A stretch of 32,670 nt of DNA from the NCBI GenBank assembly GCA_031257175.1, contig JAIRPE010000047.1, positions 1-32,670 on the forward strand, read 5' to 3'. This DNA is from Eubacteriales Family XIII. Incertae Sedis bacterium. Its GTDB lineage: Bacteria > Bacillota > Clostridia > Peptostreptococcales > Anaerovoracaceae. Under the pieces are notes generated by a model that was not told where the DNA came from, did not search any database, and was given only the letters and a program-made list of their open reading frames with translations. This document shows positions 11,408-32,395 of this stretch, piece by piece (the stretch's first letter is position 1; each line of letters starts with the position of its first letter). The translations under genes were made by a program, and so were the position numbers.

Positions 11408-11511
11408 TGCTAATCCGCGTTTAAAATCTTACCTGAAGCGGATTAGGAGATAGTATCTTCTGCCATCAGCCCGATAATCTTGGGCGGAATTTAAAAAAGG
11501 ATAAGCATAAG
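11408..11511 (+). repeat. Intergenic repeat copy A, between hypD and hypE
   Basis: This copy starts directly after the hypD stop. Hairpin 1 is CTAATCCGC with GCGGATTAG (perfect). Hairpin 2 has one mismatch (CAGCCC with GGGCGG) around a GATAATCT-type loop. The end is AAAAAAGGATAAGCATAAG. The 5' end TGCTAATCC and the 3' end GGATAAGCA are inverted repeats matching at 8 of 9 positions. It occupies most of the hypD-hypE gap, in the same sense as hypE. Confidence 0.85.
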
Positions 11512-20970: not shown

Positions 20971-21074
20971 CGCCAATCCGCGCTTAAAATGTTGCCTTGA
21001 AGCGGATTAGCAGATACTGTCTTCCGACGTCCGCCCGATATTTTGGGCGGGACTTAGAGGAGGGCAAGTATAAG
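20971..21074 (+). repeat. Intergenic repeat copy B, upstream of fliH
   Basis: Hairpin 1 pairs AATCCGC with GCGGATT. Hairpin 2 pairs CCGCCC with GGGCGG (perfect) around GATATTTT. The 3' end is AGGAGGGCAAGTATAAG, which runs into the purine-rich ribosome site of fliH. It has the same orientation as fliH. The terminal inverted repeat is poor in this copy. Confidence 0.85.
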
Positions 21075-28342: not shown

Positions 28343-28444
28343 TGCTAATCCGAGTTTGAAATGCCGCGTTGAAACGGGTTAGCGGACACTGTATTACGAC
28401 TTCCGCGCGATAACTTTGGGCGGGAGTTAGAGAAGGATAAGCAA
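28343..28444 (+). repeat. Intergenic repeat copy C, after flgE
   Basis: This copy starts 4 bases after the flgE stop. Hairpin 1 is CTAATCCG with CGGGTTAG, one pair changed to a G-U wobble. Hairpin 2 is CCGCGC with GGGCGG, one mismatch. The ends TGCTAATCC and GGATAAGCA match as inverted repeats at 8 of 9 positions. It is the most diverged copy. Confidence 0.8.
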
Positions 28445-28686
28445 GGGGCGCCTGAGGGCCGCCCGACTGAGCGGTTGAAGCTCGGTCGGAGGGCTCGGGG
28501 GGCGCCCATAAGGGACGTTATTGACGGGGGGCGGCGCGCGCGGTTTGCCGCCGCGGGAGGCAAGGGCCCGACCAGGTCGGGCGGCAGGGCGCGGATAGTC
28601 CGCGCGAGGGCAGGATATCCCAGGGGGCGCCCGCGCGAAGGCGGCGGCGGTGAATGGCCGAGCGGGCGCGCCCCCCTGATATATGA
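28445..28686 (+). other. GC-rich, hairpin-rich segment between repeat copies C and D
   Basis: There is no credible gene: open frames have Arg/Gly-rich composition only. The sequence can fold strongly. GGGCGCC near 28445 pairs with GGCGCCC near 28505 around an inner stem CCGACTGAGC/GCTCGGTCGG. Further stems are CCCGAC/GTCGGG (about 28568-28582) and GCGCGGA/TCCGCGC (about 28590-28606). It could be a structured leader, an insertion or decayed sequence. Confidence 0.4.
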
Positions 28687-28791
28687 CACTAATCCGCATT
28701 TGATAATGTTACCTTGAAGCGGATTGGCAGGCGCTATCTTCCGACGTCCGCCCGATAGTTTTGGACGGAGTTAGAAAAGGATAGGTATAAG
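28687..28791 (+). repeat. Intergenic repeat copy D, upstream of flbD
   Basis: Hairpin 1 is CTAATCCGC with GCGGATTGG (one wobble pair). Hairpin 2 is CCGCCC with GGACGG (one mismatch) around GATAGTTTT. The end is AAAAGGATAGGTATAAG, 11 bases before the flbD ATG. No other SD for flbD is visible, so the element probably supplies it. Confidence 0.85.
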
Positions 28792-28996: not shown

Positions 28997-29070
28997 CCCG
29001 CACGTAGGCCGCGAACGGCGGCATTGGCGGTCGATTGGCGTATTGGCGCAAGGAATTACAGGAGTGGCGT

Positions 29071-30117
29071 ATGGCGGACGTATTGTCCCAAAGTCAAATA
29101 GACAGCCTGCTCAGCAGCCTGCTGAACCCTGAGGAAGCCGCAGGGGACTTGGCCGAAGGCGGCGGGGGCGGCGACGAGCAGGGCGTCACGGGGATTTCCC
29201 CTGACAAGAAGGTGAAGGAATACGATTTCCGCAGCCCCAAGCTGTTCACGCGGGAGCAGCTGAAATTGCTGTTCGGCATATACGAGAATTACGCGCGCAT
29301 CATTTCGGGCCAGATAACGGGGACGCTGCAGACCCACACCCTGGTGGAAATGCTGGAGGTGGAAGAGCAGAAATATTACGAGTTCAACAACGCCTTGCCC
29401 GACTCGGTGCTGCTGGGCGTGATAGACTTCCCCGTCAGGGGGGAGGAGGACGAGGACAACTTCATGTTCATGAACGTGTCCAAGGATATAGGGTTCTGCA
29501 CGGTGGACCGGCTCATGGGGGGGCAGGGCGCGCCGTTGGACGAGGACAGAGAGTACACGGAAATAGAACTGGCGATTCTTGAGTATTTCATGCGCACCGT
29601 GGTGTCGCTGATGAAGAGCGTCTGGTTTGAATATATAGAGGTGACGCCGAGGCTGATAAAGCTGGAGACGAACGCCCGCATATTACAGGGGATAGCCCCC
29701 GACGACAATGTGGTGATAGTGGCGATGAGCGTGTCCGTGAACGACACCCAGGGCCGCATCAATATATGCATACCCGCCTCCACGCTGGACGAGGTGTTCA
29801 AGGTGAGGGCGGCGTTGAGCAAGAAGAACGCGAAGAAGGAGAACCTGGAGGCGGAGGAGCGGCGCAGGCGCCACATTATGGGCAATATCTACGACACAGA
29901 CCTGGAGATGAGAGGCGTGCTGGGCAGCGTCATGATACCCGCCAGAGACGTGATTTCCCTGGAACCCGGGGACGTCATAAGGCTCGACAAGGGCGAGGAC
30001 GCCATGGTAGACCTGACGGTGGAGGAATCCGTCTGGTTCAAGGGGGAGGTGGGCGTGTTGAACAAGAAGCTCGCGATAGAGATTAAGGAATGTTTGAGAG
30101 GGAGGAAGGACTCATGA
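29071..30117 (+). CDS. fliM: Flagellar motor switch protein FliM
   Basis: A 348-residue C-ring protein. The N-terminal LSQSQIDSLLSSL is the conserved peptide that binds CheY-P. The middle domain (about residues 45-245) resembles CheC/CheX. The C-terminal SpoA domain (about 265-345) interacts with FliY/FliN. I start at ATG 29071 because AGGAG lies 6 bases upstream and FliM proteins begin just before this peptide. A TTG 36 bases earlier extends the frame but adds residues not found in the family. Confidence 0.93.
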   Translation: MADVLSQSQIDSLLSSLLNPEEAAGDLAEGGGGGDEQGVTGISPDKKVKEYDFRSPKLFTREQLKLLFGIYENYARIISGQITGTLQTHTLVEMLEVEEQKYYEFNNALPDSVLLGVIDFPVRGEEDEDNFMFMNVSKDIGFCTVDRLMGGQGAPLDEDREYTEIELAILEYFMRTVVSLMKSVWFEYIEVTPRLIKLETNARILQGIAPDDNVVIVAMSVSVNDTQGRINICIPASTLDEVFKVRAALSKKNAKKENLEAEERRRRHIMGNIYDTDLEMRGVLGSVMIPARDVISLEPGDVIRLDKGEDAMVDLTVEESVWFKGEVGVLNKKLAIEIKECLRGRKDS

Positions 30118-30134
30118 CAATAATCCGCGGTTAA
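30118..30134 (+). repeat. Intergenic repeat copy F, 5' fragment
   Basis: TAATCCGCGGTTAA (30121-30134) is the 5' arm and start of the hairpin-1 loop of a repeat that is then interrupted by copy E. The rest of this copy resumes at 30241. Joined, the two parts give one normal copy lacking about 2 bases. Confidence 0.7.
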
Positions 30135-30240
30135 TGCCAATCCGCACCTAGAATGTTGCCTTGAAGCGGATTAGGGGATACCATCTTCCGAAGCCCGCCC
30201 GATAATTTTGGGCGGAATATGAAAGAGGATAGGTATGAAG
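30135..30240 (+). repeat. Intergenic repeat copy E, inserted within copy F
   Basis: A full copy: AATCCGC (30139-30145) pairs with GCGGATT, and CCGCCC (30195-30200) pairs with GGGCGG (30210-30215). The end is GAGGATAGGTATGAAG. The ends TGCCAATCC and GGATAGGTA are inverted repeats at 7 of 9 positions. It sits in the hairpin-1 loop position of copy F. Confidence 0.85.
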
Positions 30241-30323
30241 TGTTGCCTTGAAGCGGATTAGCGGATACTGTCTTCCTGTATCCGCCCAATGATTTTGGGC
30301 GCAATTTAAAAAAGGATAAGTAT
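30241..30323 (+). repeat. Intergenic repeat copy F, 3' part, upstream of fliY
   Basis: This part resumes at TGTTGCCTTGAAGCGGATTAG and lacks the 5' arm, which lies at 30121. Hairpin 2 is CCGCCC with GGGCGC. It ends AAAAAAGGATAAGTATAAA immediately before the fliY ATG, so AAGGAT is the apparent fliY ribosome site. Confidence 0.8.
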
Positions 30324-30326
30324 AAA

Positions 30327-31616
30327 ATGGCGAACGAAGATTATTTGTTGGATGAGATGGAGCTGGACGCCATAGGCGAGGTAATGAACATCAGCATGGG
30401 TTCCGCAGCCACCGCCATGTCCACCATCATGGACCGCAAGGTCAGCATTACCACGCCTGACATAAGAAGCATAGGCGTGGACGAGTTCGACTTCGAGTTC
30501 CTGCATCCCGTGATAGGGGTGGACATCAAGTACGTGGAGGGCATAGAGGGCGTGAACGTCCTGCTTCTGCGCCGCTCCGACGTGGCGAAGATGGTGGGGC
30601 ACCTGCTGTCAACAGACCCGGACGAGATGACCGAGCTGGATGAAATAGGGAAGAGCGCCATCTGCGAGATAATGAACCAGATGATGGGGTCAGCCGCCAG
30701 CGCGCTGGCCACGTTCCTGGGGCGCAGCATAAACATCTCGCCGCCTGAGATACTGGACTCCGTGGAGAAGGACATGGTCAGGGATTTGTTCGGCATAAAG
30801 GGCGACTCCCTGGTGAGCATAAAGTTCAACTTGCACATAGAGGGGCTGGTGGACAGCGAATTTTTGAGCGCCATGGAGCCGAAGCTGGCGAAGGAGATAG
30901 TGTCGATCTCCATGGGCGTCAACGGGGTGGCGGCCGAGCCCGACGCGGCGCCCCCTCAGGCGGCGGCCGGACTTGGCGCCGGTTCGGCGGAGCCTCAGGC
31001 GGCGGCGGAGCCTCAAGCTCCACCTCCTCAGGCGGCGGCCGGCCCGGCCCCGGCCCCCATGGGCGCCCCGCCTGCGGACATCCCCGCCGCCGCGCCGACG
31101 GCCGCGGAGCCTGGGCCGACCGCCCAGGCCCCGCCGAACCCGCCCGCGGGCGGGCAGGCATATCCGGGAGCCTATCCCTACGGCCCCCCCGCCGACTGGC
31201 CACAGCCGCCTCCGGGAGCCTGGGGCCCGCCCCAGGGAGGCTACGCCGCCCCGCCGTACCCCTACGCGCCGTACCCTGGGGGGCAGGCCATGGGGCATCA
31301 GGACAGGGTAGCCACCAGCCCCTACGCCTTTAAGACCTTCGGCAACGTGACGGGCGCGGGAGACCAGGACAATTTGGAGCTGGTCATGACCGTTCCTATA
31401 CAGATAAGCGTGGAACTGGGCAGAACCAGGAGGAAAATCAAGGACATAGCGGACTTGGGAGTGGGGAACATCGTGGAGCTGGACAGGCAGGCAGGAGACC
31501 AAGTGGACGTGATAGCCAACGGCAAGCTGATAGCCAGAGGCGACGTGGTGGTGGTGGACGACAATTACAGCGTCCGCATAACGGAGATAATCAAGCAGCC
31601 CGAAGAATTCGCGTAG
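30327..31616 (+). CDS. fliY: Flagellar motor switch phosphatase FliY
   Basis: A 429-residue FliY. The N-terminal part has two CheC-type phosphatase motifs, ELDAIGEVMNISMGSAATA and ELDEIGKSAICEIMNQMMGS, each with the E-x2-N pattern that removes phosphate from CheY-P. A Pro/Ala/Gly-rich linker (about residues 200-330) leads to the C-terminal FliN-like SpoA domain (about 340-425), which joins the C-ring. The linker is unusually long and proline-rich. The AAGGAT of repeat copy F serves as SD. fliM, fliY and cheY together form the Firmicute switch module. Confidence 0.94.
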   Translation: MANEDYLLDEMELDAIGEVMNISMGSAATAMSTIMDRKVSITTPDIRSIGVDEFDFEFLHPVIGVDIKYVEGIEGVNVLLLRRSDVAKMVGHLLSTDPDEMTELDEIGKSAICEIMNQMMGSAASALATFLGRSINISPPEILDSVEKDMVRDLFGIKGDSLVSIKFNLHIEGLVDSEFLSAMEPKLAKEIVSISMGVNGVAAEPDAAPPQAAAGLGAGSAEPQAAAEPQAPPPQAAAGPAPAPMGAPPADIPAAAPTAAEPGPTAQAPPNPPAGGQAYPGAYPYGPPADWPQPPPGAWGPPQGGYAAPPYPYAPYPGGQAMGHQDRVATSPYAFKTFGNVTGAGDQDNLELVMTVPIQISVELGRTRRKIKDIADLGVGNIVELDRQAGDQVDVIANGKLIARGDVVVVDDNYSVRITEIIKQPEEFA

Positions 31617-32141: not shown

Positions 32142-32357
32142 GGCGATGTGAATGGGGTGAGCGATGGGAGTGGGTTAAGCGGCGTGAGTGGGGTAAGCGG
32201 AACGTCGGATTGAGGCGGCGTGAGTGGGGCAAGCGGAACGTCGGATTGAGGCGATGTGAGTGAGATAAGCGGAACGTTGGACTTGGGCGGCGTGAGTGAG
32301 GCAAGCGGAACGTCGGACTTGGGCGGCGTGAGTGGGGCAAGCGGAACGCAGAACCGG
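32142..32357. repeat. 36-bp tandem repeat between cheY and fliO
   Basis: At least four and a half near-identical 36-bp units: 32181-32213 (partial), 32214-32249, 32250-32285, 32286-32321, 32322-32357. A degenerate unit precedes them from about 32142. The core is GTGAGTGGGGCAAGCGGAAC. Units abut with no spacers. Plus-strand frames contain a stop in several units, so it is probably non-coding. Confidence 0.85.
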
Positions 32358-32395
32358 GGCGCGGCTTTTGTTGAGGGCCACGCGGGGAGTTTGCC

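Follow-up and report, generated by a model that had tools for sequence, protein, structure and literature searches.

A small mobile repeat with readable ends, a readable target rule and a readable insertion order lies inside the flagellar motor switch operon of an uncultured clostridial lineage. Two copies of this 101-nt repeat occupy the gap between fliM and fliY, the inner one (E) complete and the outer one (F) interrupted by E. The best-supported explanation, which we consider probable, is that E inserted into F, the repeat being a MITE-type element with a TNA target that is moved by a trans-acting transposase. We prefer nesting because removal of E restores an outer copy of exactly 101 nt, because E and F are as unlike as many unrelated copies, because extra arms and armless bodies occur together, and because the family carries a 3-bp target-site duplication. 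Further grounds are that the joined junction has the length of the empty junction in relatives and that a second repeat family is nested with a TA duplication. The initial annotation had proposed past mobility into the loop of an existing copy, and these restoration, body, co-occurrence and target-site results support it.

The window, the whole stretch of 32,670 nt that was analysed, is contig C66 of a 2.04-Mb draft genome in 138 contigs, about 88% complete, and all genes and family copies described in it below lie on the plus strand. The upstream gene fliM (29035–30117), identified by its sequence and by the Pfam domains FliM and FliMN_C, ends in the stop codon TGA at 30115–30117, which in register with the family ends is the left TNA target copy of F. 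Directly after this stop codon lies the left fragment of F, a 14-nt 5' hairpin arm (30118–30131) recognized from its sequence and from arm matches. It is followed by TAA at 30132–30134 in the loop of F, assigned by register and target-site statistics as the left target copy of E. Element E itself (30135–30235) is 101 nt long with two hairpins and the ends TGCCAATCC...GGATAGGTA, and was delimited by its covariance-model match, its fold (z = −3.25) and its length. Its right target copy is TGA at 30236–30238, in register with the family ends and one change from TAA. Next comes the 84-nt right fragment, or body, of F (30239–30322), identified by a covariance-model match and body comparison and ending in ...GGATAAGTA. 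The right TNA target copy of F, TAA, follows in the same register at 30323–30325, and a single A separates it from the ATG at 30327 of a fliY-type gene (30327–31616) with CheC and FliN domains, recognized from Pfam and sequence.

Direct reading of the sequence, in which TAATCCGCGGTTAA is located at 30121–30134 and TGTTGCCTTGAAGCGGATTAG begins at 30241, thus confirmed the initial view that one copy sits inside another between the two genes. The proposed start of the complete copy at 30135 stands, while its proposed end at 30240 lies 5 nt too far, the true end being 30235. The outer pieces had also been thought to rejoin into one element, and they do so without a gap: joined with one TAA they give 14 + 3 + 84 = 101 nt, the length of both the inner copy and the family consensus. 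Gap-free identity to the consensus is 83/101 for F and 88/101 for E, and 77/101 between E and F.

A BLAST search of the draft genome with the repeat gave 41 matches, and a covariance model built from 37 copies gave at least 149 in the same 2.04 Mb; since the same repeat recurs genome-wide, its double occurrence between fliM and fliY is not a chance resemblance. About 263 kb around copies (295 kb including the window) were examined and yielded 165 non-overlapping profile hits. The family element is 101 nt long, non-coding and dispersed, with about 150 copies in the genome. Its terminal inverted repeats are 9 bp long and imperfect, TRCYAATCC matching the complement of GGATARGYA (TRCYTATCC) at 8 of 9 positions, which merge to TRCYWATCC. 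In the first hairpin TRCYAATCCGC pairs with GCGGATTRGYA, with changes paired on both sides at some positions, and the second hairpin is closed by GCCCGCCCAA/TTGGGCGG. Folding against shuffled sequence gave z = −5.4 for the family consensus and z = −3.3 for copy E, and a search of the window against Rfam at the gathering score matched no family.

Elsewhere in the window the covariance model matched four copies, all with approximate ends: at 11408–11508, where the left TNA is the hypD stop codon TAG; at 20971–21069; at 28343–28442, a degenerate copy after flgE; and at 28687–28787, upstream of flbD. Between the last two, also upstream of flbD, lies a G+C-rich non-coding stretch (28445–28683) with apparent inverted repeats, and near the end of the window (32143–32361) there is a tandem repeat with a 36-nt period, GCGGCGTGAGTGGGGTAAGCGGAACGTCGGATTGAG.

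Analysis of the flanks fixed the target rule. The triplet to the left of the element has T at a frequency of 0.81, A at 0.65 and A at 0.73, and the triplet to the right T at 0.86, A at 0.65 and A at 0.78; the two profiles are alike, both T(A/G/T)A, and conservation ends outside them. The middle base agrees between left and right in 56 of 89 single copies, against 41.8 expected, a value reached in none of 10,000 shuffles. Identical triplets other than TAA (TTA/TTA, TGA/TGA) occur seven times in these copies, against 2.2 expected (p = 0.0036). The matching flank profiles, together with the agreement of the middle base above that of the shuffles, show statistically that the element makes a 3-bp duplication of a TNA triplet. 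Further testing concentrated on this boundary triplet and on its middle base; duplications of other lengths or offsets gave some z values of up to 5.9, but from only two to seven pairs among hundreds of combinations. A 2-bp TA duplication of the RUP, Correia or Nezha type was also considered for the family and set aside, the flanks being 3-bp TNA with the same profile on both sides. RUP has been attributed to IS630-type mobilization with TA duplication. The 2-base TG duplication initially suggested for E is wrong as well, the target being the TNA triplet of the loop, originally TAA and now TAA/TGA. Counting against nesting, the target copies of E (TAA/TGA) and of F (TGA/TAA) carry one mismatch each.

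Independent evidence on the outer element came from relatives found through FliM, Clostridiales Family XIII metagenome-assembled genomes with FliM 74–75% identical. The element is absent between fliM and fliY in these relatives, L042, L056 and L043 among them, and no relative in the data has a single uninterrupted copy there. The empty junctions read GGACTC T TAA C ATGGCG in L042 and GGATTC T TAA T ATGGCG in L056, and the window junction, after removal of the outer block (E and F) and one triplet, reads GGACTC A TGA A ATGGCG, equal to both in length to the base. From this agreement the two ends of the outer element F follow, as does its 3-bp duplication. In L043 the junction is likewise empty, and its spacer differs. 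Such an empty site was found at this one site only (in L042 and L056); between hypD and hypE and upstream of rapZ the relatives are without the element, in gaps that are not alignable at the nucleotide level. The element is therefore short, non-coding and abundant, with terminal inverted repeats, a target duplication and an empty site in a relative, and is a non-autonomous MITE-type element, of a known kind but of a new family.

The structure of other loci bears on how the two copies came together. At 11 of 127 loci an additional left arm lies upstream at a spacing of exactly 17 nt, equal to that between the start triplet and the loop TAA; any other spacing is found at no more than two. Bodies that lack their arm and follow the right triplet immediately and in register are confined to three loci, namely the window, L070 and L100, all of which belong to the 11 with extra arms (hypergeometric p = 0.0005–0.0012 for 95–127 loci). 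A single insertion explains the extra arm and the armless body together. L100 combines an intact inner copy with outer pieces, arm and body, that have both degenerated, which is what greater age of the outer copy predicts.

The alternative that survives best, though we regard it as improbable, is that two independent local duplications between TAA triplets, one of the 17-nt left arm and one of an 84–88-nt body, produced the pattern with no transposition at this step. The TAA at the start, loop and end of the element could serve as microhomology for such events, and 8 of the 11 loci with extra arms are without an in-register armless body, so that duplication of the arm by itself may have occurred there. 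L070, moreover, has four arms and two identical bodies, which indicates that local duplication or conversion also happens. The bodies of E and F, by contrast, are not near-identical but 81% identical, a value at the 82nd percentile when all pairs are ranked; among the copies nearest to E, F ranks only 23rd, and E ranks 37th among those nearest to F. Many positions also differ between the arms in the window (TGACAATAATCCGCGGT versus TAATGCCAATCCGCACC), and separate duplications would leave unaccounted for the restriction of in-register armless bodies to loci where extra arms exist. Arm similarity within loci, computed over all 24 arm-like matches including chance ones, is not above random and does not separate the models. 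The eight loci may be either collapsed nests or simple arm duplications, the former being plausible because adjacent 84-nt direct repeats recombine easily.

Less probable still is that the block descends from three full copies in tandem, of which one body and one arm were lost by deletions between TAA triplets. Arrays of full copies with a period of 104–105 nt do exist, at L065, L066, L078 and L081, and at two of these places (L078, C121:1–365; L065, C134:7328–7675) they comprise at least three near-identical copies. The scenario nevertheless requires a triple array and two exact deletions on 3-bp homology, where longer homologies would be preferred, and most tandem copies are 93–98% identical over the body, against 81% for E and F; more diverged tandem copies are the minus-strand pair at L081 (0.78) and L071 (0.86). 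Since either this route or separate duplications of arm and body would give the observed pattern, the statement in the initial annotation that tandem duplication could not leave such fragments was too strong. An assembly artefact of the metagenome-assembled genome is the least credible reading: the draft has 138 contigs and some end inside arrays of the repeat (C121 starts within one, so assemblies do break there), but the block is only about 200 nt, it is bordered by two intact genes whose order is conserved, E and F are distinct enough to be told apart, and L070 and L100 show this architecture again.

Mobile nesting is not confined to the fliM–fliY site. A second repeat family, with the ends TTGCTCC...GGAGCAA and a length of about 75–250 nt, has inserted into copies of the first, or beside them, with a TA duplication. 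At L090 (1112–1274) the arrangement GGCTA-[163 nt]-TAAGTATAA was found, and removal of the insert restores the right end of the host copy with an exact TA duplication. This second family, which looks like an IS630/mariner-type MITE, is also present at L073, L082, L108, L138, L144, L160, L163, L168 and L174. A further common sequence, GGRRTTTGAACATTTTAA.TGCGC..CGCGCTTCAA, abuts several copies on the right (L122 and L175, and partly L167) and is possibly a third repeat family.

Nested insertion suggests the following order of events. A first copy, F, would have inserted at the fliM stop codon, between fliM and fliY, and a different copy, E, would later have entered the TAA in the loop of the first hairpin of F, leaving TAA on its left and TAA, now TGA, on its right. 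The loop TAA would act as a built-in target, hit repeatedly in this 101-nt family, and the tandem bodies so formed would often collapse by recombination, giving ladders of extra left arms. Tentatively, then, the family may bear its own landing site, the same nucleotide being struck again to build nested stacks and then ladders of 17-nt arms, so that its structure was diversified by precise self-insertion, with the element itself perhaps formed when two smaller palindromic mobile units fused. By nesting within itself at a built-in site, a simple MITE could turn into a modular repeat such as BOX.

The mobilizing enzyme would most simply be a trans-acting transposase of the IS5/IS1031 type, a guess drawn from the TNA target, as 3-bp TNA direct repeats are a reported feature of the IS1031 subgroup within the IS5 family, for example in ISLrh (PMC12016507). 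We do not claim membership in that subgroup: the TNA duplication is common to both, but the ISLrh ends, GAACCTGTCTAGTATCT, do not resemble the TRCYAATCC of the family, and an IS5/IS4-type DDE transposase was not found in this genome, a weak difference in a draft. In the draft, which is about 88% complete and in which repeats may have failed to assemble, no match was found to PF01609 (DDE_Tnp_1), PF13359 (DDE_Tnp_4), PF13358 (DDE_3), PF00665 (rve) or PF01797 (Y1_Tnp).

The family resembles RUP of Streptococcus pneumoniae, about 107 bp long with 110 copies in one genome (PMC3049150), in size class, copy number, intergenic placement and MITE features, and differs from it in its 3-bp TNA duplication and unrelated sequence. 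Like the modular boxA-boxB-boxC elements of pneumococcus (PMC3049150), it is a composite repeat in which the number of a module, here the left arm, is variable; unlike BOX, its extra modules are half-hairpins at the insertion site, which at three loci are tied to an outer body that lacks its arm, and it is bounded by defined inverted ends and targets TNA. With REP/BIME sequences and their RAYT transposases it shares palindromic structure, intergenic location and more than 100 copies, whereas it ends in terminal inverted repeats and duplicates the target site, and a Y1 (RAYT) transposase was not found in the draft genome. A small literature search gave no direct match for the family, and as far as the limited literature searched goes, neither the family nor its TNA target or recurrent self-insertion site appears to have been described.

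DNA searches across the taxonomic family (41 and 350 genomes) returned, outside the genome itself, short partial matches only. The genomes of the relatives L042 and L056 nevertheless contain related elements: that of L042 has the first hairpin alone with TTA on both sides (L199) and several lone second hairpins flanked by TAA (L195 and L206, others less cleanly), and that of L056 has elements with both hairpins but other arm sequences (L196, L198, L200). These versions suggest a fast-diverging superfamily, and two palindromic units may have fused to give the 101-nt element. Across L195–L206 (genomes G366 and G368) single- and two-hairpin versions with differing arm sequences are flanked by TNA triplets.

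TNA insertions sometimes land exactly on stop codons, leaving the upstream gene intact: eight copies in the analysed set have a left triplet that coincides exactly with the stop codon ending a long reading frame upstream, and the same holds for the outer element F at fliM. The right end of the element carries an SD-like AAGGA, and the F-derived AAAAAAGGATAAGTATAAA that now precedes the fliY start is, from its sequence, a possible substitute ribosome-binding site. Landing on stop codons together with this SD-like motif may help to explain the tolerance of about 150 copies in a 2-Mb genome. A copy on the minus strand at L102 (C126, near 1013) lies between a gene for a PHP-domain-like protein and a rapZ homologue; the upstream stop codon is supplied by its left triplet, TGA, and the ATG of rapZ is formed by the last A of the element and the right target triplet TGG.
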